From assembly GCF_000702545.1 (NCBI RefSeq), contig NZ_JNIO01000008.1, positions 1,426,001-1,490,000 on the forward strand: DNA of 64,000 nt. Direction: 5' to 3'. The stretch's first letter is position 1. Each line of letters begins with the position of its first letter. The stretch is from Selenomonas sp. AB3002 (lineage in GTDB: Bacteria > Bacillota > Negativicutes > Selenomonadales > Selenomonadaceae). Position numbers and translations under genes: made by a program. The notes under the pieces were generated by a model that saw only the letters and a list, made by a program, of their open reading frames with translations, ran no database searches and was not told the origin of the DNA. This document shows positions 195 through 15,285 of this stretch, piece by piece.

Positions 195-1301
195 TCATAA
201 AACTTTCATATATTGTGAATAAATAAGTGCCCGCATGTCATCCGAAACAATAGCTTTTTTATCAAAATGCAATTCACATACAAATCTTCCAAAAGCAGGA
301 GTCAAATAAATATTGCCATTCTCAAGTAAAACACCTCCCGCCCATTTTGCTGTATTGAATCTTCCATCATTAAATGTAGATACAACTTTACAATTTTGCT
401 TAGTAGGATCATATTCATATACATATTTACTATTTCCAGGTATATTATATATCTTCCCATTGTAATGAAGCACGGTTCCATAAGACCCAAAAATTTGACA
501 TCCTTCTTCTGTCTTTTCCAAAACCAACTCCACGCAGCCACGTTTGGGGTCTATGCAATACAAGCCTTTATTTTGAGAAAAGCTATAAATACATCCATCA
601 ATGTAAACAGCACCGCCAAAAAGAGAGTTAGATATCCTCTCTCCTACCATCCTTACAGATAAATTCTCTAAATCAAACTCGGCAACTGCCGATCCATGCA
701 TCGGTGTAAAGTACACCTTCCCATTTGGATGCAATACCGCTCCATTATAATTATTATCTCTAAAAGCAGAATGTCTAACTTGTTTACAGGTTTGATGTTC
801 CAAATCTATCAGCAATACGTCCTCTGCCAAACGAGGAGGGATAACCAATGTATCATTTTTCATTACACCACCATAATGATGTCCCATAACTGTCCTGCTA
901 TTTAATTTAGAACCGTCTATACTACAATCTACTTCTTTTACCGTTTTCATATTAATATCAATATCAAGTAGCCTGCAGGAATTCCTCATAAAACCATAAA
1001 TATGCCTATTTTTCCAAGTGCATCCCCCTGTATAGGAAAAATGTAAACCAGGGATCTCTCCAATAAATTCAACATCACACTTTTTAGGATAATAAAGCAT
1101 AGTTTTGGGGGCAGAATTATTGATATTTACAATAACTTCTTCATCATTATCATTTTTACAATGGACGCAGCCAACGTATTTTTCCGAAGATTCAGAGGCT
1201 ATACATTTTACAAGAGAAATGCGTTTAAAGTTTACATCCTTGTTCAACTCGAAGGTTCTCAGCAGTACTTTGCGATATTGCTCCTCATCAAAAAGCAGCA
1301 T
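195..1301 (-). CDS. Beta-propeller (kelch/NHL-like) repeat protein in polysaccharide locus
   Basis: A 368-residue protein made of repeated units of about 45-55 residues with the pattern G-G/T-hydrophobic, N/D-G-x-I/V-Y, then Y/F-x-Y/I-D. Examples are GGAVYIDGCIYSF, YGTVLHYNGKIYNIPGN and AGGVLLENGNIYLTP. This is the signature of a multi-blade beta-propeller. I see no signal peptide or membrane segment, so it is probably cytoplasmic. The start at 1301 is chosen because GGAGG lies five bases upstream; a longer open frame to 1352 would only add sequence lying inside the SDR gene. It overlaps the SDR gene by 14 bases, so the two are probably translationally coupled. Function is unknown; the context suggests a role in or around capsule assembly. 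Confidence 0.7.
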   Translation of the reverse strand: MLLFDEEQYRKVLLRTFELNKDVNFKRISLVKCIASESSEKYVGCVHCKNDNDEEVIVNINNSAPKTMLYYPKKCDVEFIGEIPGLHFSYTGGCTWKNRHIYGFMRNSCRLLDIDINMKTVKEVDCSIDGSKLNSRTVMGHHYGGVMKNDTLVIPPRLAEDVLLIDLEHQTCKQVRHSAFRDNNYNGAVLHPNGKVYFTPMHGSAVAEFDLENLSVRMVGERISNSLFGGAVYIDGCIYSFSQNKGLYCIDPKRGCVELVLEKTEEGCQIFGSYGTVLHYNGKIYNIPGNSKYVYEYDPTKQNCKVVSTFNDGRFNTAKWAGGVLLENGNIYLTPAFGRFVCELHFDKKAIVSDDMRALIYSQYMKVL

Positions 1302-2034
1302 AAAATCCTCCAGAAGCATCCAACATTTCCCCGCAACAAATAGTCGCTGCATCTGACATCAAAAATAGTGCACAAGCTGCTATTTCTTCCGGGGATAAAA
1401 TTCTCCCTAAGGCACAACTTTTTGTAGGATCTCCTGCATTGTAATCATTAAGAGAAGATGCTACTATACCCGGACAGATTCCATTAATCACAATCCCTAA
1501 ATTTAAAACTTTCTTTGCGTGACTTCGCACCATTTCGGAAAAAGCATATTTACTCCCCTGGTAACTTCCCTGTATATTATAATTTCTGCTTTCAATAGAC
1601 GAAACGCAAAATATATTCCCCTTTATATGATTATTATTTAAATACGTAGCAAATTTCCTTAATAAAAACATAGGACCTTTTAAATTAGTATCCCATACAG
1701 CATCCCATTCCTCCTCCGTTTCATTCCAGGGCTTCCAATTATGATGGCTTACATAAACGCCAGCATTGTTTACCAATCCATCCAAATATCCTCCGCACAG
1801 GCTTGCAGCCTCATTGATTTTCTCCCATATAAGCGAAACATCCCTAACATCCCATTGCATACACGAAAGTCTATCGTTTCCGAATTCTTCTTTCACCTTC
1901 TCCAGTTTCTCAAGATTTCGTCCACAAATACACACATAACAACCTTCGTCAAGGAGAGCCTTGGCAATCGCCTTGCCAATACCGCTCCCCCCTCCTGTAA
2001 CCAGCACCCTTGAAACCCGAAGCTTAAATTCCAC
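1288..2034 (-). CDS. Short-chain dehydrogenase/reductase (SDR family)
   Basis: A 248-residue classical SDR. The NAD(P)-binding motif TGGGSGIG is near residues 13-20, NNAG near 90, the catalytic Ser in VSSIES, YQGSK supplies the Tyr-x3-Lys pair, and CPGIV is the usual C-terminal motif. GTG at 2034 is preferred because GGAGG sits eight bases upstream, overlapping the end of the 916-residue fusion gene. The substrate cannot be read from sequence. Its place between a pyruvyltransferase/acetyltransferase fusion and a propeller protein suggests a sugar or sugar-nucleotide oxidoreduction in surface polysaccharide synthesis. Confidence 0.85.
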   Translation of the reverse strand: MEFKLRVSRVLVTGGGSGIGKAIAKALLDEGCYVCICGRNLEKLEKVKEEFGNDRLSCMQWDVRDVSLIWEKINEAASLCGGYLDGLVNNAGVYVSHHNWKPWNETEEEWDAVWDTNLKGPMFLLRKFATYLNNNHIKGNIFCVSSIESRNYNIQGSYQGSKYAFSEMVRSHAKKVLNLGIVINGICPGIVASSLNDYNAGDPTKSCALGRILSPEEIAACALFLMSDAATICCGEMLDASGGFYAAF

Positions 2035-2039
2035 AGTTT

Positions 2040-4790
2040 TTACCTCCACTCGATGTTTGAACGCACAACCTTGGCAGGAACTCCCACTGCCAAACTATCG
2101 GCAGGAATATCCTTTGTCACCAGGCTCTTTGCTCCTATACAGCATCCTCGCCCGATAGTAACTCCTTTCAAAATGGTCACATTCTGCCCTAGCCAAACAT
2201 GCCCTTCAAATTTCACGGGAGCTGGCGGGTTTATAACCTTTCCATCCTCAAGGATTTTATGATAGTCGCTATCAACAATATAGCAATTGGGTGCAATTAT
2301 AGCGTCACCAATATTGATACTCTTTGCACATACAACAATAGAATTTGTATTCATATATCCATTGCCAAGAGTCAGGACTGCATTTTTGTGTACCTTAATA
2401 CGACAAGAATGATAAATTTTAAAGTTACCTTCTACTATTATCTTTGAACCTTCATCCATTTCAATCAAACAATCACTATTGCTTCCCGGTAATTTCCCAG
2501 CATTTAATATTAGGCTAGAATTTGAATTTGTAATGATTTTTGCTGTAGAATGTGCACGAACAACAGCACCATTCAACTTTACAGAAGATTCATCAAGCTT
2601 ATTCACATCTTGTTCTTTCACTAGCTTATTAGTATCAATTTCATCAATTATTTTTGAGAAAGGGATGCCTTGAGCAAGTCTCTGATAAAAATACTTAGAA
2701 TTACGTCCCAGCTGAGTTGAGGACATAAAATTAACATTCCCCTTGCTAACTGCCTCAATATTTTTCTCTTCTACATACAGTTTCTCTTTTATTTCATCAA
2801 AGAGCTTCACGCCCTTGTCTGTATGTATAATAGCCGTACTAATACCATGGCTTTTATCACAATTCATAGCTATTCCCCAGGCATCTGCAAGGGTTATATC
2901 ACTATGGCGCTTCTCTCCCTTAAAATTACAATGTGAACAAGACGGACGGGAATACAAATGGTGCTTCAAAAAACCTTTGTAAAAACTATCTTCATAACGA
3001 TTTTTAATATAATAAGGTTCCTTTGTCTCAAAATCTATCCTAGTTGAGAACTTCTCCCAAGATATTTCTTTATTCTTGAACCAAACCTTTTTAATTGAAT
3101 CTCCAATGTTATTTTCAATCTCAGCCAAATATGCCTGATAAGCCTTTGGGCTATTCACAGAATGGCAAATAAAATCAACAAGATACAAATTATCATCAGG
3201 AATTTTTTTAGCATTTATAAATGAACGAACCGCTGCGCATTGACAAGGTGTACCACAAAACATAACATTTTTCCCGTCTCTTAAATGTCGTTCCATTTTT
3301 AAATATGTATCACGAACTTCACTTTGTACATATTTTGATTGTCTGATACGAGGAATATCTTTTTCATCAAATATTTCAGTGTGAACAACCTTTTGCGGTG
3401 TTTCGTAGGCTGCTCCAAATACCACCGCATTACCTTTTGCAAAAACGCCCTTGGCTAATTCTGAGAAAAAACCTCCACTAGTAGAGAGATAACGTATTTC
3501 TTTGTCCTTACTGAACCCACACCAAACAGTATTTATTTGACCTGTCAATTCGTTTTTGGACAATACTGGACATGCCTTACCACATATTCCACAATTGACA
3601 CATATAGATTCATCAATTTTAGGATAAAGGAAACCAGTCTCTTTATCTTTCTCTATGCTAATACACTTCTTGGGACAAACATTAACACATGACATACAGC
3701 CAGTACACTCTACCCTAGGCAAGTAATCTATTCTATTCTCCTGCTTCTTTCCATCTGTTATAGCTTTTACAAGAAATTCACGAACCTTATTATTCATAAG
3801 CATAATCTTATCTTTAACAGCATTACTATCCACAGGTTCTTTGATAGCCTTATCAATATCATCCAGCTTGCTGATAAATCTGTTCTTAATGCCAAATTGC
3901 TGCAATAAATCAACCAATCTAGACGATAGTCTTCCTCTTTCTATACCAAATACATTTTTCTCAAAAATATATCCCAAGCAAGCCCCATGAAATGAATTTG
4001 TTATTATAGCTTCACTATGATATAAATAATAAATCCAAGCAGAAAGGCTCTCCGAGAAATTATTTACATATATATACCTCTCCAACCTCTCCCTATTTTT
4101 CTCAATTCTGTCTTTGTCTTTTTGTGCAACAATGAAAACAGGTTTTAAATTCATCTGCTTGGCAGTATTAATTGCAAGTTCAATTGAATTATCACTCATA
4201 TCTAGCAAGTACACTGCAGCATATTTTCCTTCTATCGATTTATGAGAATATGCTTGAGCGATCTTGTAGTAATATTCCTTTCCTTGAGAAAAAATAGGAT
4301 CTGGCATGATAACCGCGTGATCTATCCCAATCTTTTTGCATAAATCCAATCCGAATTTTTCTCTAATAGACAAATGTCGAAACCTCTTCAAATATGAATA
4401 AAGCATAGGATAATCGCTCTTATCATAATTACCTGTTTCTGTACCGAAACTAGCAGCCATACTAATTATATTATTCTTTTCCACCCAGGAAAACATTCGC
4501 ATATCAAGAGGCAGAAACCAATTTTTATATAAAGTCCAATCAGAACACAATAAAAAATTACTAAAATATCTATTCCAGTCTTTGGGAGGCATAGGATTAT
4601 TTATCAACACTTTAGTAAAATCGCACAAACGATTGTATATCACATTTTTATCGTCATCATGCCCTTTCACTTTCAAAAGTTTAGCCTTAAACCCCATGTC
4701 ACTTATCGTAGAATAAGTAACAAGAACAGTCAAACTGCCTCCCCAATTAGAATTATTGTATCGTCCTAATATCCCAACATCATACTTCAT
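2040..4790 (-). CDS. Fusion: polysaccharide pyruvyltransferase + 2[4Fe-4S] ferredoxin + FrhB-like reductase + hexapeptide acetyltransferase
   Basis: A 916-residue multidomain protein. Residues 1 to about 345 resemble the polysaccharide pyruvyltransferase family (CsaB/WcaK type), with SFHGACLGYIF near the end of that domain. Residues about 355-410 hold two four-cysteine clusters (CTGCMSCVNVCP and CVNCGICGKACP), a bacterial-type 2[4Fe-4S] ferredoxin. Residues about 410-735 resemble the coenzyme F420 hydrogenase/dehydrogenase beta subunit family (FrhB), with further cysteines such as CGTPCQCAAV and CSHCNFKG. The last roughly 170 residues are a left-handed beta-helix acetyltransferase ending VWLGQNVTILKGVTIGRGCCIG. 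In many polysaccharide loci the first and FrhB parts are separate neighbouring genes. RBS GGAG is 14 bases upstream, a long spacing. AT-rich composition. Confidence 0.8.
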   Translation of the reverse strand: MKYDVGILGRYNNSNWGGSLTVLVTYSTISDMGFKAKLLKVKGHDDDKNVIYNRLCDFTKVLINNPMPPKDWNRYFSNFLLCSDWTLYKNWFLPLDMRMFSWVEKNNIISMAASFGTETGNYDKSDYPMLYSYLKRFRHLSIREKFGLDLCKKIGIDHAVIMPDPIFSQGKEYYYKIAQAYSHKSIEGKYAAVYLLDMSDNSIELAINTAKQMNLKPVFIVAQKDKDRIEKNRERLERYIYVNNFSESLSAWIYYLYHSEAIITNSFHGACLGYIFEKNVFGIERGRLSSRLVDLLQQFGIKNRFISKLDDIDKAIKEPVDSNAVKDKIMLMNNKVREFLVKAITDGKKQENRIDYLPRVECTGCMSCVNVCPKKCISIEKDKETGFLYPKIDESICVNCGICGKACPVLSKNELTGQINTVWCGFSKDKEIRYLSTSGGFFSELAKGVFAKGNAVVFGAAYETPQKVVHTEIFDEKDIPRIRQSKYVQSEVRDTYLKMERHLRDGKNVMFCGTPCQCAAVRSFINAKKIPDDNLYLVDFICHSVNSPKAYQAYLAEIENNIGDSIKKVWFKNKEISWEKFSTRIDFETKEPYYIKNRYEDSFYKGFLKHHLYSRPSCSHCNFKGEKRHSDITLADAWGIAMNCDKSHGISTAIIHTDKGVKLFDEIKEKLYVEEKNIEAVSKGNVNFMSSTQLGRNSKYFYQRLAQGIPFSKIIDEIDTNKLVKEQDVNKLDESSVKLNGAVVRAHSTAKIITNSNSSLILNAGKLPGSNSDCLIEMDEGSKIIVEGNFKIYHSCRIKVHKNAVLTLGNGYMNTNSIVVCAKSINIGDAIIAPNCYIVDSDYHKILEDGKVINPPAPVKFEGHVWLGQNVTILKGVTIGRGCCIGAKSLVTKDIPADSLAVGVPAKVVRSNIEWR

Positions 4791-4997: not shown

Positions 4998-5732
4998 CTA
5001 TAAACCCAAAGCAAATGGATATGTCCTTGCACCTATCATCCGAGGCTTACGAATCTGTGGTCTTTGTAAAACGTCTGGCCTATTCTCAAAGTTATTTACC
5101 ACCATTTCATGAGCCTCTCCAACAGTAAGAATAGTTACCCCGCACCAGTTTTCTGCAATATCAAGAAGTTCCGTACTATAAACTCCCCCCACCCCTGATA
5201 TATCCTCCGAAAATTGTCCATGACTACAACTATAAAGGACAACAGCCTGACCGACGCATTGCCTAATTGCCTCGTCATACATGCTTCGAGCCATCTCCCG
5301 TGTGATTCCACTCCAAGAATCAAAAACAGGGCGGGAAGCCTTTTTTATCTGTACCTCTTCCTTCCCAAAAGGCGCTCTACAACAATCTAAAATTACCGTC
5401 CGCCCCACTTTGACAAATTCGGTTTCACTAATAACATCCTCGCAATCTTCCGAGAGAGCCAGAATAGTTTGTCTCCCCAGTGAACCTCCATGTCCACTGA
5501 ATACTACTATCGAGTACTCCATTGAGTCCAACCAACGCAAGGCTTTACGCACTTCATTACTCGAAGTATATATTGGAAGTGAACATATCTCATCCTCATC
5601 CCATGCGCCACCCTGCATACTAAGAAAGAATTCCTTATATCTCTTTAAGTCAGCAAATACGCCTTTGCAATATTCATCAGCTTTATATCTATCTCCCGGA
5701 TTGCCTATCAACAGCACGCCCCGCCTCATCAT
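4998..5732 (-). CDS. Caspase-fold cysteine protease (peptidase C14 family)
   Basis: A 244-residue single-domain caspase-like protein. The N-terminal strand VLLIGNPG is followed by the VVFSGHGG motif with the catalytic His at about 81, and by VILDCCRAPFG with the catalytic Cys at about 118. Both strand-loop motifs are in canonical order and spacing. YSCSHGQFSED and VYSTELLD match the later conserved part of the metacaspase/caspase domain. There is no pro-domain, signal peptide or membrane segment, so it should be cytosolic. GGAGGGGGAG precedes the ATG. It follows a four-helix membrane protein by 22 bases, implying one transcript. Bacterial caspases are often effectors in anti-phage or cell-suicide systems; that role here is inference from the family and the pairing. 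Substrate unknown. Confidence 0.85.
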   Translation of the reverse strand: MMRRGVLLIGNPGDRYKADEYCKGVFADLKRYKEFFLSMQGGAWDEDEICSLPIYTSSNEVRKALRWLDSMEYSIVVFSGHGGSLGRQTILALSEDCEDVISETEFVKVGRTVILDCCRAPFGKEEVQIKKASRPVFDSWSGITREMARSMYDEAIRQCVGQAVVLYSCSHGQFSEDISGVGGVYSTELLDIAENWCGVTILTVGEAHEMVVNNFENRPDVLQRPQIRKPRMIGARTYPFALGL

Positions 5733-5754
5733 CTATCTCCCCCTCCACAGTAAA

Positions 5755-6360
5755 TCACTCCAATATGGACGGAACCATTTTGGCACTAAACCCGCCTACA
5801 ACTCCCAGAATTGCCAACAGTACCCCTTCGTTTTCTCCACCTTGAAAACTATGGAAAACAACCCCCGCCTTAAACAGCAACGTCAAGAAATATGCACCTA
5901 TGCCTCCAGCCACATACCTGGATAAAATTTGCAGTAAGTGCAGATACCATCCCGCCCCGCTGCTATATCTAAGCTTGGCAATGTTATGGATGCCATAAAG
6001 CATAACTCCCGTACAACCGTAGAAGACTGTATATCCTACAGTCCTCACGTCATAACTCAAACAATCTCCAAGGTTGTAAAAACAAGTAAACATTAACAAT
6101 ACGATGAAATATATCGCAAAAGAACAAGTATGCTGACACTCTCTACATCTTTCCAAAAGACGAGCTGAATAAAATTTAGCTGCAACCGTAACCATGCGTC
6201 GCGCCAACGCTTCCTGCCCATCTATTGCCAATACAACAGCTCGCCCCAATTGCCACAAAAGATCACGCTTTATCTCAGGATGAAAGAATCTCATGCCTGC
6301 CTGATGAGATAAAAGATCTACATCAGCTAATATATGGTGAAAATAGTTCTCCCTATTCAA
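5755..6360 (-). CDS. Four-helix membrane protein paired with caspase
   Basis: A 201-residue open frame (TTG start) with a soluble N-terminal part of about 78 residues and four hydrophobic helices near 80-97, 108-126, 148-170 and 178-198; the protein ends directly after helix 4. I do not recognise the family. TTG 6360 has no good RBS, and the same frame stays open upstream to a TGA at 6471-6469. Beyond that TGA it continues as plausible coding sequence to ATG 6570, so the real product may be about 70 residues longer or the gene may be interrupted. It is immediately upstream of and cotranscribed with the caspase gene, which makes it the likely membrane partner, sensor, substrate or pore of that protease. 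Confidence 0.6.
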   Translation of the reverse strand: MNRENYFHHILADVDLLSHQAGMRFFHPEIKRDLLWQLGRAVVLAIDGQEALARRMVTVAAKFYSARLLERCRECQHTCSFAIYFIVLLMFTCFYNLGDCLSYDVRTVGYTVFYGCTGVMLYGIHNIAKLRYSSGAGWYLHLLQILSRYVAGGIGAYFLTLLFKAGVVFHSFQGGENEGVLLAILGVVGGFSAKMVPSILE

Positions 6361-6673: not shown

Positions 6674-6734
6674 TATATCTCTCATTCACTCACCATCAAT
6701 CTAATCTTTTCTGTGCAATTATAAAACATCAAAA
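6674..6734 (-). repeat. 61-bp direct repeat, copy 2 (3' end of glycosyltransferase gene)
   Basis: The resident copy of the repeat found at 4830-4890, same orientation, about 90% identical. It covers the last 17 codons and stop of the KpsC-GT8 gene plus eight bases beyond. It forms the upstream border of the membrane protein-caspase unit. Confidence 0.85.
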
Positions 6735-9378
6735 AATATTCTTCTATTTTCCCCTTTTCCACATATTCTTTGGTATATAAATACAGCCCCCTATGATCTA
6801 TAAAATAAGAAAGTTTCCCATAATTTTTGTTTACCAAAATTTCTATTTCCTGCTTTGTTTTCCGGACTTGCTGCTCTCCACTAATCCACATCCCGCACAT
6901 AAATTTTCCTTTAAAGTTCACCTTAAATTCATAATAGCAAACTTCATTATAATCAAATATCAACCATTTTTTATCAAAAAACTCTCTTATCTTTAACTCT
7001 TTAGGAAGGACTTTATATATTCTCGCTAATAATCCCAACCACATGTCACGAATTAGCTCTTTCTCCACCAACATCCCTATTCTATCACTGCGGACCATTT
7101 TAGATGACAGCCCAAATTCTTTCACACACTGCTGATAATATTCCATCCACATAGGGAACACATGAGAAAGCAGTAAGTCCGACCATACTTTCTTTCCCAT
7201 AAAGTGTATGATTTTGCTACCCGAAAAAGCCAAATATGGGAAAACATTATATACTTTATTGTCAAATGCGTGCAGACGAAGTTTGTTTTTCGCTGCAAAA
7301 AAGGCAAAAATAATTTCATCTCCGCCCCAAAGCCTATTTTGATTAATAATATATTTTCTAAAAAAGTCTACCCCATCAGAATAGCATTTCATGTAGTCGA
7401 AATTATCATTTACAACAATTAGGCCTCCATTAGGAGTTACTGTATCTTTTGTTATATTGTGTTTTTCTAATAAATCACGCTTTATTTTCTCCTTATCCTC
7501 GAATGCATCTAGATCAAATTTTTCGGAGAAATTTAAACCATTTTTCCACGCGATGTTGCAATCCAATGCAAAAAGTTCATCTATCTTATCCAGAACTAAA
7601 ACGTCTAAATCTATCAATATAACCGTCGAAAACTCTCTTAAATGTTTTAGGCAAAGAAATTTAGTATAGATGAGAAAAGAATACCTTGTATCCACCGCCT
7701 TAAAATGTAAACTACCCGTTCCAACAGAAAATTCTGCACAGAATTCATCGTGTGTATATAAAATCCACCTAACCTTATAGGATGCGAATTTCTCCTTCAA
7801 TCTTTCGTCAATTTCCACATCACTGTATACAATAACTGTATCATAATCAATTTCCATCTTCTTTAGATTAATAAGAAAAGTGCCCAAAGCAAACATCAAC
7901 TTCTCATTAACCACTACCATAAATGCCTTATGCTTTTTTTTCATTGAATTCACATAGCTCCTCCGCAGCTCCAGCAGCTCATCAATAACATCCTCAATCT
8001 CACATACCTTCCCCGTCCTATAGCTAAGATATACCGTAGAGAACACATACGCTGCATAAAAGATTTCCTCCACAGAACGTCTTTTCTTCCTGCGGGGGCA
8101 GCTTTGCCTATCCCTGGTCACCCCCCAACCAGCATAAAACGGCATACCAAAGACATGCACTTCCTTGCCACACATCAGAGCCTCAAACCCCAGCTGGCTG
8201 GTGCAGACGTAAACCTTGTCCACCTGCTCCAAAAGGGCTATGGGGTTCATGGTTGCCTCCAGCCAGATAACGCGGGGATGATCCTCATAGCCAGCAAAAT
8301 GCTTTTTCCCCTTGACTGGATGAGCCTTGACATAAATATCCGCTTCCGGGTTCTCCTCCAGGGCCACCCCCAGCATTTCCGAGAACATCTCATCCGTGGC
8401 CTGGCCGTAGGATATGGACATATCACCATAGAGCTGGTCTACCACCAGCACCTTCTCCCCACCCTTGACAGCAGGCAGACGGAAATCTGTGGCGGTCTGG
8501 GAATTGTACTTGCTGAGCTTTTGCTCCAAAATTGTCTTGATAAGCCCCTCTGCACGGTACCTTTCTTCCTGTGACATTTCCCAATCCGAATTTAGGATAT
8601 TTTCTACCCGGGAAGGGGAACCGGCGTTGATGTAGTCCCCACCCATGTCCAGCACCAGGGAATGGCCCTGGCGGAATTTATTCTTCTCCAGCTGCTCCAC
8701 CGGCTCGATGCTATGGAGAAAGCCCTCATCAGAAAGGATAACCGGCACGCCCCTCCGCATAGCCTCCAGCTCCATGAATTTGGCATCATAGTCTTCCTCA
8801 TAGAGACTGTGGGTGAAAAGCAGATCTGCCTCCTCTGGCAAATGCCTGCCCTTCACCAGTTCCACCTGCCTGCCAAAGAGGATATTCACAGAGTCCGCCG
8901 CACTACGGGAACGGTAGTGAAGCACAGGATGCTTAGCCGCCTGGCACATCTGCAGCAGACGATTCTGCCGCCCTTCTTTGCTGCCACTGCGCAGGAAGCA
9001 TTCATAAAAATAGTTGTGCTGCAACTTCTTGACCTTGCCCAGTTGCAGGCAGGTCGCCTCATACAGGAAGGACAGCTGATCTTTTTTCATTCCCTCAGCG
9101 CTGTTTCCAGCCAGAATGTCATTGTAGGTGACCCATTTGTCCACCCCGGCCTCCCGAAGCTGTTGAAGTATGCTGCTGCAAAAATGAGGTGTGACCAATA
9201 ATATAGGCCTGTTCTCCATAGCCAGGAAGTCACTAAAGGATATCAAAGGGATGCCATGCCATTTCTGCCCCTGCAGTTTAGGATTGTTGTCCACCACAGC
9301 TTCTATCTGCCAGCCTTGCAACAGTTCCCTTGCTTCCTCCGCACGGGAGCCACTGCCCCAAAAGACAACACGCTTCAT
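6682..9378 (-). CDS. KpsC-like capsule glycosyltransferase fused to GT8 glycosyltransferase
   Basis: An 898-residue fusion. Residues 1 to about 100 are a Rossmann-like module (VVFWGSGSRAEEA). Residues about 115-475 match the KpsC/capsule-synthesis glycosyltransferase family: DQLYGDMSISYGQA, VKAHPVKGKKH, CTSQLGFEALMCGKEVHVFG and PFYAGWGVTRD. Residues about 483-760 resemble GT family 8, with the metal-binding DLDVLVLDKIDELF and PNGGLIVVND; the last roughly 140 residues are unassigned. Base composition changes abruptly near the 7.95 kb junction: the KpsC part is GC-richer, the GT8 part AT-rich. An ideal GGAGGAG (7958-7964) lies six bases before an in-frame GTG at 7953, suggesting a fusion of two genes or an internal translation start. 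It belongs to the capsule-type polymer operon. Confidence 0.85.
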   Translation of the reverse strand: MKRVVFWGSGSRAEEARELLQGWQIEAVVDNNPKLQGQKWHGIPLISFSDFLAMENRPILLVTPHFCSSILQQLREAGVDKWVTYNDILAGNSAEGMKKDQLSFLYEATCLQLGKVKKLQHNYFYECFLRSGSKEGRQNRLLQMCQAAKHPVLHYRSRSAADSVNILFGRQVELVKGRHLPEEADLLFTHSLYEEDYDAKFMELEAMRRGVPVILSDEGFLHSIEPVEQLEKNKFRQGHSLVLDMGGDYINAGSPSRVENILNSDWEMSQEERYRAEGLIKTILEQKLSKYNSQTATDFRLPAVKGGEKVLVVDQLYGDMSISYGQATDEMFSEMLGVALEENPEADIYVKAHPVKGKKHFAGYEDHPRVIWLEATMNPIALLEQVDKVYVCTSQLGFEALMCGKEVHVFGMPFYAGWGVTRDRQSCPRRKKRRSVEEIFYAAYVFSTVYLSYRTGKVCEIEDVIDELLELRRSYVNSMKKKHKAFMVVVNEKLMFALGTFLINLKKMEIDYDTVIVYSDVEIDERLKEKFASYKVRWILYTHDEFCAEFSVGTGSLHFKAVDTRYSFLIYTKFLCLKHLREFSTVILIDLDVLVLDKIDELFALDCNIAWKNGLNFSEKFDLDAFEDKEKIKRDLLEKHNITKDTVTPNGGLIVVNDNFDYMKCYSDGVDFFRKYIINQNRLWGGDEIIFAFFAAKNKLRLHAFDNKVYNVFPYLAFSGSKIIHFMGKKVWSDLLLSHVFPMWMEYYQQCVKEFGLSSKMVRSDRIGMLVEKELIRDMWLGLLARIYKVLPKELKIREFFDKKWLIFDYNEVCYYEFKVNFKGKFMCGMWISGEQQVRKTKQEIEILVNKNYGKLSYFIDHRGLYLYTKEYVEKGKIEEYFLMFYNCTEKIRLMVSE

Positions 9379-9447
9379 CTACACAAACATCCTTTCTTCG
9401 GCTTCAGGAAAAATCATCACACACGCACAGGCTAATCCTGACTTTAC

Positions 9448-10734
9448 TCAGCCTACGGCCAACCCCGCAAATATTTGTGGCTCGTCATGGTGAAAGACAT
9501 CTTTATGCCCGGCCTGGGCTAGTGCCTCCGTCACCTGAGGCACATAACGCCCATTCAAGGCCAGCAGGAAAACTGCCTCCCTGCCTATTTCAGATAAGTG
9601 GAAAACACGTGCCCCCTGGAAAGCAGGCGGCGACACCTGTCCATCACTGACCACACAACCTGAGCAAATCATGCCTTCCCCGGACAGCAGCAACAGATAG
9701 CATTTGGCTGCAATGCCCGCGCCATAAAGATAGACGGGCAGCCCTGAAGCAAAAGCAGCTCGCGCCGTCTGAAGCATGGCAAGCCTTGCTTCCTCATAGC
9801 ATGCCTGCAAGGCCTCGGGCTTCTGGCGATAAAACTCTAGCTGCCCTTTTGCGAAAAGCACTGGCTCTGTTATTTTTCCTGCAAGCTTCTCCATTCGCCC
9901 AGCATAGTCCAAGAGTTTTTCCTTATATGCCACACTGTCAGTAAAGAACATCTCCCTATACTGCCTGACAAGGTCATATAGGTACGATTCAAGCAGCAGA
10001 TCCAGTACATTCCTTTCCTGCACCCATAAGTTGGCCAGCATATACTCATAGACCGGGGTCAGGTCAAGTTCCATGGTGGTGCGCTTTGTCACTCCGGCAG
10101 GGTTTTCCCTGTAGCAATAAGCACTGCCTGGCAGACAAATTACCTGCCTTGCCCCGGAGAGCAGCAAATAATTGCCATGCAAATCCTCTCCGCTGGCAAT
10201 GCACTCATCCGGTTGCCATCCCTCAAAGAGACTGCGGCGGTAAACCTTCCCTGCCAGATGCCAGCCAAAATGGCGCTGGCGGAACATCTCCCCCAAGGCT
10301 TCCTCTCTCCCCATGAGTTTTTCCTCAGCCCTGGGGAAGATGGGACGGCAGCTGCCATCAGCGTAGACCCGCTTCATGCTGCCAGCTGCCACATCCACCT
10401 GGGGATTGCTTTGCATAAAAGCAGTCAGATGTGGAAAATACCCTGTCTCAAGCCAATCATCCGCATCAACAAAAGCCAGCAGTTCCCCCTTGGCTGCAGA
10501 CAATCCGCTCTTCCGGGCAGACAGGATACCGCCATTGGGCTTGTGGATGACAGTGACGCGCCTGTCCTTGGCGGCATAGCAATCACAGATTTCTCCCGAG
10601 CCATCAGTTGAACCATCGTCCACCAGGACAAGCTGCAAATCTTCGACCTCCTGCCCCAGAATGGATTCCACGCAATGCTCCAGGTATGCCGCCTGATTCC
10701 AGACTGGCACTATGACACTTAATGAAACAGCCAT
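9448..10734 (-). CDS. Glycosyltransferase family 2 with C-terminal Rossmann module
   Basis: A 428-residue protein. The N-terminal GT-A domain has VIVPVWNQAAYLEHCVESIL, VDDGSTDGSGEICD and the metal-binding DADDW near residue 92. The last roughly 100 residues carry a separate nucleotide-binding-like module (VYLYGAGIAAKCYLLL ... VFLLALNGRYVPQVTEAL) that recurs in the neighbouring genes. RBS GGAG precedes ATG. It lies four bases after the next GT2 gene, in one operon. The sugar donor and acceptor cannot be read from sequence. Confidence 0.87.
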   Translation of the reverse strand: MAVSLSVIVPVWNQAAYLEHCVESILGQEVEDLQLVLVDDGSTDGSGEICDCYAAKDRRVTVIHKPNGGILSARKSGLSAAKGELLAFVDADDWLETGYFPHLTAFMQSNPQVDVAAGSMKRVYADGSCRPIFPRAEEKLMGREEALGEMFRQRHFGWHLAGKVYRRSLFEGWQPDECIASGEDLHGNYLLLSGARQVICLPGSAYCYRENPAGVTKRTTMELDLTPVYEYMLANLWVQERNVLDLLLESYLYDLVRQYREMFFTDSVAYKEKLLDYAGRMEKLAGKITEPVLFAKGQLEFYRQKPEALQACYEEARLAMLQTARAAFASGLPVYLYGAGIAAKCYLLLLSGEGMICSGCVVSDGQVSPPAFQGARVFHLSEIGREAVFLLALNGRYVPQVTEALAQAGHKDVFHHDEPQIFAGLAVG

Positions 10735-10738
10735 TCTC

Positions 10739-12034
10739 TTACTCCGCCCCCAAGCTCTGCCTGAGCTCCAGATTCATAGCTATATAATTGCTGCAATGCA
10801 ATTCTCGCAGCGTACCAAGCACCTCTGGCAGTTTCTCGTCACCTACGCATGCCAGTACCAATATCCCGGGGCAGTCCAGTGGAAGTCTACTTGCCTCAAA
10901 CAGCGGGATACCTTCCAACTCCTTCTTATCCCTCAGGCTGGTCACCAGGAAACCTGCAGGAGCAAAGCCTCGCTGAGCCAGGCAATCCTTTACCAGGCAA
11001 GCCACCCGGCCTGCACCGTAAAGATAGATCATGCCAGCTCCTTCCAGCTCTCGCCAAAATCCTGAGACACACATTTTCTGTTCCTGCCATTGCAAAATGG
11101 CATTCATGCGAATCTGCTCATCGGTGTTTTCCATTAGCTGTTGCCAGCAGAGAGATAGCGCAGCTTCACCATTAGCTGCTTCCCTTTGCAGCTCTTCCTT
11201 GACACGGATAAGAAATTCTGCCTGCTCCAAGGCTTTCAGACGACGTTTGCCAGTGAGAAACTGGGCATGTTTTGTCTGCCTTATAACCTCGCCCAGCTTT
11301 TTACCCAACTCCGGTCTCTGTACCAGAAAATCTTCCACAGCCTGAAACTCGTCAAAAAGGAAATGGCTCTTACCCCCATCCCTGACGGATTGGCCGGCGT
11401 TGTCCCTGCGGTAATGCAGGAAAGCCTCACGACAGAGAACCACCCGCCTGGACGCCGCCAAAGCCTTTATGGCAAAAGACACATCCTGATAGGCAGCTCC
11501 CGGCGTCTCCAGAAAATCAACACCCTGTTCCAGAAGCCAGGAGCGGCGGTAGACAGCCGACCAGATGCTGGGGCTGACCTTCAGCAAGGACGGGTCATCT
11601 TCACCAGGGCAAATAAGCTTGTCATAGGGATGACCTGCCAAAGTTTCATGAAAAAATTTCCTGCCATTGCGGTATTCCCAATAGTTGCTCTTAACCAGGT
11701 CAGCTTCATAGGCATCTGCCAGGCTGCACAGCCTTTCAAGCATATCCGCCTCAGCGAAATCATCCGTTTCCACGATGGCTATATACTCGCCCCGGGCCTG
11801 CTTTATGCCCAGATTCATCTGGAAGCCATAGCTTTTGCGCTCCGAGGGCAGGAGCATCAGACGGCTGTCCTCTTCTGCCCTTTCGCGGATAATCTCTAAA
11901 GTGCCATCCTCTGAGCCAGCATCTATGCAGATAACCTCTATATCCTGCAAGGTCTGTCCCAGGACACTGTCTATACTTTGCCTGATATAGGGTGCCACAT
12001 TGTATGAGGGCATGAGCACAGATACTTTCGGCAT
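10739..12034 (-). CDS. Glycosyltransferase family 2 with C-terminal Rossmann module
   Basis: A 431-residue protein. The GT2 domain has VSVLMPSYNVAPYIRQSIDSVL, CIDAGSEDGT and the acidic motif ETDDF. The C-terminal part (MIYLYGAGRVACLVKDCL ... GILVLACVGDEKLPEVLGTL) is the same kind of Rossmann-like module as in the next gene. It begins immediately after the stop of the 860-residue glycosyltransferase (TAA then ATG), so it is translationally coupled in the polysaccharide operon. Confidence 0.87.
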   Translation of the reverse strand: MPKVSVLMPSYNVAPYIRQSIDSVLGQTLQDIEVICIDAGSEDGTLEIIRERAEEDSRLMLLPSERKSYGFQMNLGIKQARGEYIAIVETDDFAEADMLERLCSLADAYEADLVKSNYWEYRNGRKFFHETLAGHPYDKLICPGEDDPSLLKVSPSIWSAVYRRSWLLEQGVDFLETPGAAYQDVSFAIKALAASRRVVLCREAFLHYRRDNAGQSVRDGGKSHFLFDEFQAVEDFLVQRPELGKKLGEVIRQTKHAQFLTGKRRLKALEQAEFLIRVKEELQREAANGEAALSLCWQQLMENTDEQIRMNAILQWQEQKMCVSGFWRELEGAGMIYLYGAGRVACLVKDCLAQRGFAPAGFLVTSLRDKKELEGIPLFEASRLPLDCPGILVLACVGDEKLPEVLGTLRELHCSNYIAMNLELRQSLGAE

Positions 12035-14617
12035 TTAGGCTTCCCCTTCCAATCCCAGACGTACATCCTGCCAATAAACTCTTTCCTTATCTACCCCAAG
12101 CTGGCGCAGGCTGCGGCGGATTTTTTCCGCTGCTTCTGCCTCCTCGGCAGCGATAAGGACAATATCGAACTCCATCTCCATCAGGGCTTCAGGGGGCAGT
12201 ACCTCTGCCTCCCCGGCATACTCTGCCGGCTTTTCTGCCACAATGCCTGCCAGAAGGAAACGTCTGCCATGGCGGATCTGCCATGCATAATCCTTGCCCA
12301 TATCCCCATAGCCATAAACCACCAGCCTTGCACCTTCCCTGAAACCATGCTCAGGAAAAAACCAACGCTTGTACTTGCGCATAGCAGCACTGGATTCACT
12401 ATGCCGGGCAGGGAGATAGTTCTCCACTGGCATTCCCAGGGCTGCCGAAGCAGAATGCTCCTGGGCCTCCAGCCTCAGCAGTTCCATTTCCTCCTGACAC
12501 CGTTTTTGCAGCCTCTCCTTAGCCATCTGCTGATAGCTGGTGATATATCTGAAAAGCATCGACATGGCATTGGATGCCTCGCCGCGCCCTTCTTCTTCTG
12601 AAGTAACAGCAGAGAAAACCTCCCGCCAGCTGGCGGCTATATCCGTTTTTTCCAAATCTGCCAGATGAGATTTGCCCTTTGCCCCCAGTTCCTGGGCCAG
12701 CCGGGGGAACTTGAGTAGCTTATCTATTTCCGCCGCCAAAAGCTCAGGCCGTCCCTGGGGCACAGACAAAAGTCCCTCATTATTCTCAGCCATGGAAAGC
12801 CAGGGCAATTCATAAGCCACCACCGGCAGACCATGGGCAAAAGCCTCTGCCATGGCCAAAGGGAAGCCCTCGTAAAGGGAAGTGGAAAGGAAAATACTTG
12901 CCCGGCGATAATACTGCTCCACATCCATGGTGAAACCCACCAATTCTACACTGTCCTCCAGCCCAAGCAACTTGATTTCCTGCCGCAATTTAGAAAGACT
13001 TAAATCGCTATCTTCCCCTATCATGCAAAGCTTTGCCTGTCTACCGCGTTTCCTCAGCAGGTATATCATGCGCACAGCTTCCAAAGGCTGCTTTTCAGGA
13101 CTCAGCCGTCCCACCCAAATAATCAAGTCCTGCTCATAACTGGAGTTTGGCGTGGTACCAGTGGAAAAGGGGATAGGGTTTGGAATACAGTAAGTATGTG
13201 GTGCGAAGGAACCTACAAATTCCCTGTCATATTCGGACAGAACTACGCAGCCATCCGCCAGACTGTACATGGTCAAAAGATTCGAAGCCAGACCATCCAT
13301 GCGGGTATAAGGCATACAGCAAAATTCATGACTCTGCAGCACAAAAGCTGGATGCAGAGGATGGCTCTTTATAGAGAGCCAATCCCATATCACTGCTTCG
13401 TGATGCAACCAGGCATAAACTACTACATCCACAGCATATTGGGCCAGCATTTCCTGCCATGCTCTGCAGCGCTGTGCATAATTTTCGCCAGAAGCTTCTT
13501 CCGGTGAGGGCAGATAAACTCGTTCCACCTGCTCCGACAGGGGATACTCTGCCTCTTTCCCGGCAGTTGCCTGATCCAGTACCAGCACCACTCTATACAA
13601 AGGAGCACCATTTTCCTGGCGCGCTTCTGCCCAGAGGCTGGCCAGCATGGCTGTCACCCGCTGTGCGCCACCATTGGCAAGAGAACGGTAGTAGATGGCC
13701 ACCGTCAAATCTTCCTGATGATCCTTGCTTTTACGTCTTCCCAAGGGAAGCCCACTTACATAGTCAGCAATTTCCTGCCAGGGCTGTCCCCAGCGGGAAG
13801 CAGCCAGGGCACCAATGAAGTCTGCTGGATCAGTCGAGTAATCCTCCAGTTTCGGCTCTTTGGAAGCTGCATTTTCCAACACTTCCCAATGCCCGCTGGA
13901 GAGCAAATTCAACATGCCGTTCTCATCCGGTAAGGTGCGCCAGGAAGCATCTATGATTTTTGCTTCCGGCACTCTCCAGGCCAGCAAATCTTTGCGCACC
14001 GCTTCCACAATGCGCTCCTCGTTGATAGCAATTACCACGGCATCATAGGCTTCTTCCTGTATCTTGTCTGGTGTAATGAGCCTGACCGCCTCAGACCGAT
14101 AGTCCGTGTTTTTGTCCGCCACGGCTTCTACCTTGCAATACGGCACCACTTCCAGCTGTGCCAGAAACTGACGGCACACATCCCCTGCCCCATAGATGAT
14201 AACCCTGCTGCCGGGCCTCACTAATTCAAAGGGGAACAGATAAAGCATGACATCAAAATTGCGCATGGTGCTGCTGCCAGGACGGTTAATCTTATGGTAA
14301 CGCAGGACAGGGCGAGGGCTTGACAGGACAATCCGCTCCCTTTTTATGCCAGACTCAACCAGCTGCTCAGCCATTCGACTACCTGCGGTTCCATCCTCAG
14401 CAGCTATAACCAGCAAGTCGTAGTCACTACGCCCCAGTCTTTCCAAGGCAGACTCCGGCAGACCCCCATCCTCCTGTTCCTTTACAGATACAGCAACAAC
14501 CTTGGCATAGCCGGAAGATGTCAGCTGCCCCAGGAACTGTACGAGTATATTTTCTGATCCGTGCAGTATGACCTTGCTGCCTTGGGGCACCTTATCAAAG
14601 GGAAACAGATATATCAT
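12035..14617 (-). CDS. GT4-type glycosyltransferase flanked by three Rossmann-like modules
   Basis: An 860-residue protein. Two similar modules lie in tandem at the N terminus: LFPFDKVPQGSKVILHGSEN at residue 4 and LFPFELVRPGSRVIIYGAGD at about 126. A GT-B glycosyltransferase of family 4 type follows (about 300-690), with YYRSLANGGAQRVTAML, IIWVGRLSPEKQPLEAVRMI and YEGFPLAMAEAFAHGLPVVA. A helical linker leads to a third module at about 745-860 (VVYGYGDMGKDYAWQI ... RVYWQDVRLGL). That last module is a close copy of the protein encoded immediately upstream. The modules may bind nucleotides or sugar nucleotides. GC-rich compared with the flanking AT-rich genes. Confidence 0.85.
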   Translation of the reverse strand: MIYLFPFDKVPQGSKVILHGSENILVQFLGQLTSSGYAKVVAVSVKEQEDGGLPESALERLGRSDYDLLVIAAEDGTAGSRMAEQLVESGIKRERIVLSSPRPVLRYHKINRPGSSTMRNFDVMLYLFPFELVRPGSRVIIYGAGDVCRQFLAQLEVVPYCKVEAVADKNTDYRSEAVRLITPDKIQEEAYDAVVIAINEERIVEAVRKDLLAWRVPEAKIIDASWRTLPDENGMLNLLSSGHWEVLENAASKEPKLEDYSTDPADFIGALAASRWGQPWQEIADYVSGLPLGRRKSKDHQEDLTVAIYYRSLANGGAQRVTAMLASLWAEARQENGAPLYRVVLVLDQATAGKEAEYPLSEQVERVYLPSPEEASGENYAQRCRAWQEMLAQYAVDVVVYAWLHHEAVIWDWLSIKSHPLHPAFVLQSHEFCCMPYTRMDGLASNLLTMYSLADGCVVLSEYDREFVGSFAPHTYCIPNPIPFSTGTTPNSSYEQDLIIWVGRLSPEKQPLEAVRMIYLLRKRGRQAKLCMIGEDSDLSLSKLRQEIKLLGLEDSVELVGFTMDVEQYYRRASIFLSTSLYEGFPLAMAEAFAHGLPVVAYELPWLSMAENNEGLLSVPQGRPELLAAEIDKLLKFPRLAQELGAKGKSHLADLEKTDIAASWREVFSAVTSEEEGRGEASNAMSMLFRYITSYQQMAKERLQKRCQEEMELLRLEAQEHSASAALGMPVENYLPARHSESSAAMRKYKRWFFPEHGFREGARLVVYGYGDMGKDYAWQIRHGRRFLLAGIVAEKPAEYAGEAEVLPPEALMEMEFDIVLIAAEEAEAAEKIRRSLRQLGVDKERVYWQDVRLGLEGEA

Positions 14618-14635
14618 AGCCCCTCTCCTCCAGTC

Positions 14636-15262
14636 TTAATCCTTGATGCCCAAGCGCACATCATGCCAATAGATACGCCGCCTGTCCACTCCCACAGAAC
14701 GAAGCTTCTTTTTGATAGCTTCAGCTGGCTCAGGCTCCCTAACGGCTATCAGCACCACATCATAGTCCAACTTATCTAAAGCTTCCAGTGGCAGGACATC
14801 TGCCTCCCTATCATAACTGGAGATATTGGAATCCACGATTCCCTCCAGGCAAAGCCGGTCCGAATGGCCTATTTGCCACACGTAATCATGCCCCATATCT
14901 CCATAGCCATAGACCACCACCCGTGTCCCCCTGGGGAAGCGGTAGTCCGGGAAAGTCCAGCGCTTGTACTTATGCATGGTAACAACGTGATGCTTGAGGA
15001 TTTTTACTCGCTTGGAGAAATCATTCACCATCTTGGCATCTGCTTTTGACTTGTCATCCGCTTTCTTGGCATCTGCCTTTGACTTGGTCAAAAGTTTATC
15101 ATAGTCATCTTCCAGCTGCTCCACCAAAGCAAGAACTTCCTCTGGGCGGGAGCAGGAGTACATGTTGGTTCTATAACGGTCAAACACAGCATCTTTTTTC
15201 AGATTGCAATTTATTATGAACGGCTCACCATTCACATCTGTTATTTCATAATTTTTTGACAC
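14636..15262 (-). CDS. Stand-alone Rossmann-like module protein of polysaccharide locus
   Basis: A 208-residue protein starting at GTG 15262. Residues 1-85 are charged and helical with a repeated Lys/Ala/Asp stretch (KSKADAKKADDKSKADAK), probably a coiled coil. Residues about 95-208 are a Rossmann-like domain (RVVVYGYGDMGHDYVWQI, YDVVLIAV, RRIYWHDVRLGI) nearly identical in layout to the C-terminal module of the next protein. No glycosyltransferase domain is present. It may be an accessory subunit, or a remnant of module duplication. Confidence 0.75.
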   Translation of the reverse strand: MSKNYEITDVNGEPFIINCNLKKDAVFDRYRTNMYSCSRPEEVLALVEQLEDDYDKLLTKSKADAKKADDKSKADAKMVNDFSKRVKILKHHVVTMHKYKRWTFPDYRFPRGTRVVVYGYGDMGHDYVWQIGHSDRLCLEGIVDSNISSYDREADVLPLEALDKLDYDVVLIAVREPEPAEAIKKKLRSVGVDRRRIYWHDVRLGIKD

Positions 15263-15285
15263 AGCCTATCTTCTCCCGTCCTTAA

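Follow-up and report, generated by a model that had tools for sequence, protein, structure and literature searches.

Enolpyruvyl ethers are the natural half-way product of the transfer of phosphoenolpyruvate (PEP) to a sugar, and MurB reduces such an ether to the lactyl ether of MurNAc. In Pvg1p, a member of the polysaccharide pyruvyltransferase family PF04230 (PS_pyruv_trans), residues R217, R337, L338 and H339 contact PEP in a computed model, and D240 is a further pocket residue (pyruvyltransferase review). In Acaryochloris, a BciB that carries the annotation frhB restores reduction of the 8-vinyl group, and a BciB examined in vitro is an Fe-S protein with flavin adenine dinucleotide (FAD) that accepts electrons from reduced ferredoxin and reduces the C8 vinyl group (PMC4836224); FrhB relatives can thus reduce a carbon-carbon double bond with ferredoxin. 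Ethers of (S)- and (R)-lactic acid occur in the O-antigens of several enterobacteria (PMC10609480). Here we analyze a 64,000-nucleotide stretch of the Selenomonas sp. AB3002 genome (contig NZ_JNIO01000008.1, positions 1,426,001 to 1,490,000; hereafter ‘the window’), which encodes on its minus strand, at positions 2040-4790, a single polypeptide that joins a pyruvyltransferase-family domain, a dicluster ferredoxin, an FrhB-type reductase and an acetyltransferase. We propose, tentatively and at somewhat less than an even chance, that this fusion tailors a polysaccharide by carrying out pyruvyl transfer, reduction and acetylation as coupled steps on a single capsule intermediate.

The fusion is encoded by one frame of 916 residues with an ATG start and no internal stop codons. 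Pfam finds all four parts: PS_pyruv_trans (PF04230; 74.1 bits versus a cut-off of 25.3), Fer4_7 (40.6 versus 27), FrhB_FdhB_C (PF04432; 85.2 versus 23.3) and Hexapep (32.2 versus 27), the sole part under its threshold being FrhB_FdhB_N, which at 21.0 bits lies slightly below the cut-off of 22. The observation of a sequence-only reading of this DNA, that four such parts are joined in one polypeptide, is therefore confirmed. The same arrangement occurs in a Lachnospiraceae metagenome-assembled genome (locus L043), where a 935-residue protein is 56% identical over 924 positions and is the closest relative among the matches listed. Because this full-length relative has the same architecture and is followed by the same two downstream genes, we rejected the idea that the fusion arose by an assembly, frameshift or sequencing error. 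Across the genome (8 contigs, 99.83% complete) no other gene carries FrhB_FdhB_C, and just one other carries PS_pyruv_trans; this second gene has the motif I-R-L-H and is taken for CsaB. At the C-terminal end, the NCBIfam WbbJ model matches residues 782-911 with an E value of 2.7e-21, scoring 76 bits versus an equivalog cut-off of 243. Aligned with WbbJ at 34% over 112 positions, this domain carries an S-D-Y-H sequence, a candidate for the catalytic histidine, that stands one residue out of register with WbbJ.

The association between the pyruvyltransferase and FrhB parts extends well beyond this protein. Using profiles for PS_pyruv_trans and FrhB built in this analysis, we located both families in the loci of the best 80 of 580 confirmed FrhB relatives from GTDB species genomes, a sample that leans to relatives of the window FrhB. 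A pyruvyltransferase homologue is present in 66 of these loci, fused in nine (L043, L044, L045, L060, L062, L068, L083, L114 and L120) and separate in 57, every one of the latter within 4.1 kb. The two genes had been described beforehand as frequent neighbors in polysaccharide loci, and their linkage, whether as a fusion or at a distance of no more than about 4 kb, proves to be stronger than was claimed. Locus L063, scored as separate, also holds a second FrhB that is fused and so constitutes a tenth fusion. The pyruvyltransferase comes first in eight of the nine fused loci; in L060 the FrhB part leads, as it does in a fusion from another genome of the window’s family (L029). An acetyltransferase lies inside the FrhB frame in L043, L050 and L052 among the 80 loci, as well as in L028; the L050 and L052 frames have no pyruvyltransferase, and in L045 the acetyltransferase is the next gene rather than a fused domain. 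Judged with an acetyltransferase profile, three of the 14 pyruvyltransferase-FrhB fused frames carry this domain, namely those of L028, L043 and the window. Rare though the four-part form is, the pyruvyltransferase-ferredoxin-FrhB core recurs in the fused frames of relatives and is not a one-off, so that the description of the fusion as unusual holds for the acetyltransferase-bearing form and fails for the fusion of pyruvyltransferase with FrhB, which recurs (9/80) in both orders. The L028 frame, from the same genus as the window genome, is 1425 residues long and reads pyruvyltransferase-ferredoxin-FrhB-hexapeptide-SDR-type epimerase (SDR, short-chain dehydrogenase); its five-part fusion seems to have been built separately from that of the window.

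A quick tree of 114 FrhB domains, in which 50 of 111 inner branches are weak, groups the window FrhB with those of L043, L044 and L045, all of them fused (SH-aLRT 99). The FrhB domains of L028 and L029 lie elsewhere, and the remaining fused rows are scattered. The fused or separate label needs at least 11 changes, a figure specific to this quick FrhB tree, and our claim goes no further than several origins of the fusion. When two proteins have fused independently and in either order, they usually act on one substrate or in one complex; this is established reasoning and no test of chemistry. Because fusion has occurred repeatedly, in both orders and at scattered points of the FrhB tree, and because the separate genes are tightly linked, we conclude that pyruvyl transfer and the FrhB step form one functional unit. 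The domains and the linkage also agree with the suggestion of the sequence-only reading that the fusion would link a redox reaction to polymer substitution, an interpretation that is thereby partly supported. FrhB matches on plasmids were seen in Bacteroides, Phocaeicola, Pseudobutyrivibrio and Ruminococcus only (6 records).

The ferredoxin-FrhB segment contains a conserved, putative electron path. All eight ferredoxin cysteines, together with C516, C542, C618 and C621, are invariant in a 37-row alignment; in a more diverse alignment of 14 rows, seven ferredoxin cysteines and the same four FrhB cysteines are invariant and C362, the first of the ferredoxin set, nearly so. By this conservation, C516, C542, C618 and C621 are predicted to bind a third Fe-S cluster. 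The model of this segment (pLDDT 93.7) has the FrhB fold, with Z scores from 27.3 to 18.3 over its first twelve matches. Its best match is the F420-reducing component of a carbon monoxide dehydrogenase system (8riu_B; Z 27.3, rmsd 3.2, 308 residues aligned), and others are Fsr (7npa; Z 23.2), HCAR (5dqr; Z 20.3, rmsd 4.2, 288 aligned) and FrhB itself (4ci0; Z 19.5). The label ‘FrhB-like’ is accordingly sound as to family and fold, but it must not suggest coenzyme F420: in the whole genome, neither CofD (best 20.7 bits versus 257.45) nor CofH (best 43.5 bits versus 374.1) is found over its cut-off, each of which is passed in three of 14 control genomes. On this ground we rejected dependence on F420, although uptake of the coenzyme from outside remains conceivable, and since the genome has no F420-synthesis genes over cut-off, the reductase part is probably driven by ferredoxin.

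The active site of the first domain appears to depart from that of ketal-forming relatives. The TDRLH sequence of Pvg1p (5ax7), whose RLH we read as R337-H339, aligns with TDSFH in a profile of 40 homologues and with TNSFH in the window, a weak match (E 0.0023 for the chain, 0.12 for the stretch). The R-x-H motif of the ketal type is therefore missing in the window, which has T-N-S-F-H versus TRLH in WcaK and IRLH in the genome’s CsaB-like protein. Because the PEP-binding arginine of Pvg1p aligns with a serine, the domain should not simply be called a ketal pyruvyltransferase. R143, D164 and H268 are present in all 67 homologues compared, and by their spacing they are the likely counterparts of Pvg1p R217, D240 and H339. 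Position 291 is arginine in 42/42 homologues with serine at 266 and lysine in 23 of the 24 with arginine at 266, which suggests that the positive charge has been relocated to 291 rather than lost; PEP thus stays possible as the donor. The notion that the serine type cannot bind PEP was rejected because of this covarying basic residue.

FrhB pairing was also examined from the pyruvyltransferase side. PF04230 was searched in 60 genomes of the window’s class, 40 from the family of the L043 genome and 51 from the phylum to which a Prevotella genome belongs, and about 6 kb were fetched on each side of the matches, less at contig ends. Of 77 matches other than CsaB, 74 were sorted by which residue they have at the position of Pvg1p R337; L206, L207 and L217 were missed by the built profile and are uncounted. 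FrhB lies in the fetched region of 26 of the 38 non-Arg homologues (Ser, Thr and a single Tyr, L180; 9/10, 14/25 and 3/3 by sample) versus seven of the 36 Arg-type homologues (4/14, 3/15 and 0/7), with L157, an Arg-type match whose FrhB is 9 kb away, counted as lacking it (Fisher p 2.5e-5, which is optimistic because the genomes are related). Each sample includes one centre genome (G000, G091 or G094) chosen for carrying the pair; without these three the counts are 22/33 versus 7/35 (p 1.8e-4, optimistic for the same reason). None of 20 CsaB-like genes, fetched from matches in the window’s class, has an FrhB partner, and the count is unchanged when the threshold applied to the other homologues is used. 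FrhB pairing is thus enriched in the non-Arg subclass and not confined to it. The nearest pairs in the 66 loci plus the window (n = 67) comprise 42 S-x-H, one T-x-H and 24 R-x-H sequences, and the simpler rule that loss of the PEP arginine marks FrhB coupling was rejected because Arg-type homologues pair with FrhB too. A second pyruvyltransferase subclass, with the motif G-A-R-T-H, is likewise linked to FrhB (L172, L181, L182, L059, L063 and others). Arg-type pyruvyltransferase domains also occur in other long frames (728 to 911 residues; L149, L158, L159 and L205), around which the fetched region holds no FrhB.

In the mechanism we propose, the GT-B-like N-terminal domain would transfer an enolpyruvyl group from PEP to a sugar hydroxyl and leave the ketal unclosed, which is MurA-like chemistry on a different fold. 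Electrons would pass from the cell’s reduced ferredoxin through the dicluster domain to the FrhB Fe-S cluster and on to FAD, which would reduce the enolpyruvyl double bond to a lactyl (1-carboxyethyl) ether, much as MurB acts on UDP-MurNAc and BciB on a vinyl group. The C-terminal domain would O-acetylate the same sugar unit, the SDR encoded by the next gene would probably adjust a sugar carbon, and the acceptor is expected to be lipid-linked. That the transferred enolpyruvyl group is what FrhB reduces is our inference. Taken more broadly, PS_pyruv_trans and FrhB may constitute an undescribed route of ‘reductive pyruvylation’ to bacterial lactyl ethers, encoded by adjacent genes across several phyla and gathered here with an acetyltransferase into one enzyme of three chemistries, a possibility that we raise with more doubt than confidence. 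Capsules of Klebsiella offer a possible parallel. In a survey of 79 capsule types, 46 are unpyruvylated, and only K8, K22, K37 and K66 of these carry pyruvyltransferase genes (PMC4616057). The K22 glycan contains 4-O-[(S)-1-carboxyethyl]-D-glucuronic acid (from a title cited in PMC7246685 and PMC3857182), and K37 differs from it solely by a missing acetyl group (PMC3857182). The same survey counts one coenzyme F420 hydrogenase gene and two nitroreductase genes over the 79 loci (PMC4616057). In the open literature searched, largely at the level of listings and with few subscription journals covered, we found no proposal that FrhB and PS_pyruv_trans act together or make lactyl ethers; nor did we see a substrate attributed to FrhB-type genes in capsule loci, or a pathway attributed to the lactyl ethers found in O-antigens and bacterial capsules. 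The words ‘lactyl’, ‘F420’ and ‘reductase’ are absent from the pyruvylation review in a word search, and passages of a Butyrivibrio paper yielded nothing on lactyl or pyruvyl groups. If the proposal is true, one enzyme pair would answer both what FrhB reduces in capsule loci and where lactyl ethers come from, polymer chemistry would become predictable from genomes, and ‘polysaccharide pyruvyl transferase’ would be a misnomer for a sizeable part of the family.

Several points weigh against reductive pyruvylation. Our searches turned up neither an activity nor a product or acceptor for members of the enzyme pair. The linkage compared here, that of FrhB to the pyruvyltransferase, cannot by itself distinguish consecutive from parallel reactions. 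No pyruvyltransferase was found in 14 of the 80 FrhB loci (in 10 of these one flank or both are shorter than 5 kb, but not in the other four), FrhB is missing from the region fetched around 12 of the 38 non-Arg homologues, and it partners Arg-type homologues in 24 of the 67 nearest pairs, so the exchange of arginine for serine is no marker of a reductive class. The basic residue at position 291 may mean that PEP is held conventionally and a ketal formed. Among the Klebsiella types, a lactyl ether is only presumed for K66, the proposal leaves K8 unexplained, and to place the F420 hydrogenase and nitroreductase genes in K66 and in K22/K37, though tempting, is a guess.

The strongest rival is parallel modification of one repeat unit, in which the first domain makes an ordinary ketal, ferredoxin-FrhB reduces a keto- or unsaturated sugar of the same unit together with the SDR, and the fusion merely co-locates tailoring enzymes. 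Ketal formation on lipid-linked intermediates is described for two members of this Pfam family, WcfO and CsaB (pyruvyltransferase review). The full conservation of R143, D164 and H268, the FrhB loci without a transferase, the SDR gene that follows the fusion in both the window and L043, and the SDR-type epimerase fused in L028 all fit this account as well. Repeated fusion of FrhB with the transferase in both orders, however, would be unexpected for unrelated steps, and we consider parallel modification unlikely, though of appreciable weight.

The fold of the first domain leaves room for a second rival, that the S/T-F-H transferase is a GT-B enzyme that uses another donor, which FrhB makes or reduces, and is no pyruvyltransferase. 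The domain model (pLDDT 90.4) has a two-domain alpha/beta/alpha, GT-B-like fold and finds its best fold matches among GT-B enzymes, PimA for example (2gej; Z 20.7, rmsd 3.8, 313 residues aligned), with glycosyltransferases and UDP-GlcNAc 2-epimerases scoring highest. Among NCBIfam models none matches the domain at 1e-5, and the weak alignment of the presumed R337 with serine also favors this rival. Pvg1p is absent from the 50 fold matches listed, which does not exclude a likeness to it. Against another donor stand the PS_pyruv_trans score over its cut-off, the probable counterparts of R217, D240 and H339, the basic residue that may have shifted to 291 and the pairing of FrhB with Arg-type homologues, and we judge this rival improbable. 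Least of all do we expect a redox gate, in which ferredoxin-FrhB would monitor the ferredoxin pool and turn pyruvylation or acetylation on and off with no reduction of the glycan: its sole point in favor is the tethering of ferredoxin-FrhB to two transferases, whereas the conserved electron path and the HCAR and BciB precedents fit catalysis better and 57 of the 66 pairs are separate genes.

The fusion and the two genes that follow it form a small module, listed in Table 1.

Table 1. Features of the fusion gene and the two genes downstream of it (window coordinates).
Feature	Position	Strand	Basis
Fusion protein, PS_pyruv_trans - dicluster ferredoxin - FrhB - hexapeptide acetyltransferase	2040..4790	minus	Frame, Pfam, 56% to L043
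PS_pyruv_trans domain, residues 17-285, GT-B-like fold, T-N-S-F-H at residues 264-268	3936..4742	minus	Pfam, alignments, model
2[4Fe-4S] dicluster ferredoxin, residues 356-416, eight Cys	3543..3725	minus	Pfam, alignments
FrhB_FdhB N and C domains, residues 423-679	2754..3524	minus	Pfam, alignments, FrhB fold
Left-handed beta-helix (hexapeptide) O-acetyltransferase domain, WbbJ/LacA-like, residues ~782-911	2058..2447	minus	Pfam, NCBIfam, pair alignment
FabG-like SDR	1288..2049	minus	Frame list, Pfam, 67% to L043 gene
DUF6923-like protein, 385 residues	195..1352	minus	Frame list, Pfam, 50% to L043 homologue

The SDR is likely to be translationally coupled to the fusion because its listed GTG start overlaps the 3' end of the fusion gene by 10 bases; its alignment with the gene that follows the fusion in L043 begins at residue 6 of the window protein. 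The DUF6923-like protein, which matches the third module gene of L043, is probably a beta-propeller (DUF6923 at 25.8 bits, slightly below the cut-off of 27, and at 40.0 in the L043 homologue). The L043 homologue begins at Met12 of the window frame (position 1319), and on comparison of the two sequences this is probably the true start, the listed start at 1352 being 11 codons too early. Roles for the acetyltransferase, SDR and DUF6923-like protein are suggested by family and place only. Because the gene order is the same in the window and L043, the three genes appear to have been inherited or moved as a block, and the GC content of the module (35-40%, versus 54-57% in stretches further along the window) fits lateral arrival. 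The module forms the end of a polysaccharide island whose further genes encode Capsule_synth, two GT2 and one GT4 proteins, a Glyphos_transf-GT4 fusion and a cytidylyltransferase; cobalt-transport genes lie past the module on its far side.

Positions 6682-17856 of the island are rich in long multi-part frames: an 898-residue frame has Capsule_synth at 204-453 only, one of 860 residues has GT4 at about 495-650 and large stretches without an assigned family, and one of 856 residues joins a CDP-glycerol glycerophosphotransferase to GT4. Immediately upstream of the fusion, at 4998-6360 on the minus strand, a 244-residue caspase-fold protein (Peptidase_C14, E 4e-12) is encoded beside a 201-residue protein that has no Pfam family and, by eye, hydrophobic stretches. 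A phage-defense label for the caspase-like gene was dropped, as neither it nor its 201-residue neighbor has a PADLOC match at E 0.01. The L043 island contains nucleotidyltransferase-aminotransferase and nucleotidyltransferase-kinase fusions (2118-3965 and 11662-13203), the latter of which we take to be LicC/LicA-like, and a Stealth protein; these suggest a polymer decorated with phosphonate or phosphocholine.

Compared with known systems, the window protein shares with CsaB, WcaK, Pvg1p and WcfO the Pfam family PF04230, a GT-B-like fold and, by probable counterparts, R143, D164 and H268, and it differs in having T-N-S-F-H where Pvg1p, WcaK and the genome’s CsaB-like protein have R-L-H, and in being fused to a reductase. 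Klebsiella K22 and K37 have a pyruvyltransferase gene in their capsule loci, while their polymers contain a lactyl ether but lack pyruvate. MurA and MurB follow the same two-step order as that proposed here, enolpyruvyl transfer and then flavin-dependent reduction to a lactyl ether, and serve as a working analogy only: their folds are unrelated to those of the window protein, MurB uses NADPH rather than ferredoxin, and the acceptor in the window is expected to be lipid-linked. The acetyltransferase domain resembles WbbJ/LacA-type enzymes by its match to the WbbJ model, and differs in being the C-terminal domain of a fusion and in scoring under the equivalog cut-off. Finally, the redox part shares PF04432 and its fold with FrhB, F420-dependent sulfite reductase (Fsr), BciB and HCAR; its ferredoxin precedes the FrhB part, and the fold matches to Fsr and HCAR cover the ferredoxin as well. 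It differs from these enzymes in residing in a host with no F420-synthesis genes over cut-off and in being embedded in a putative polysaccharide-tailoring protein.

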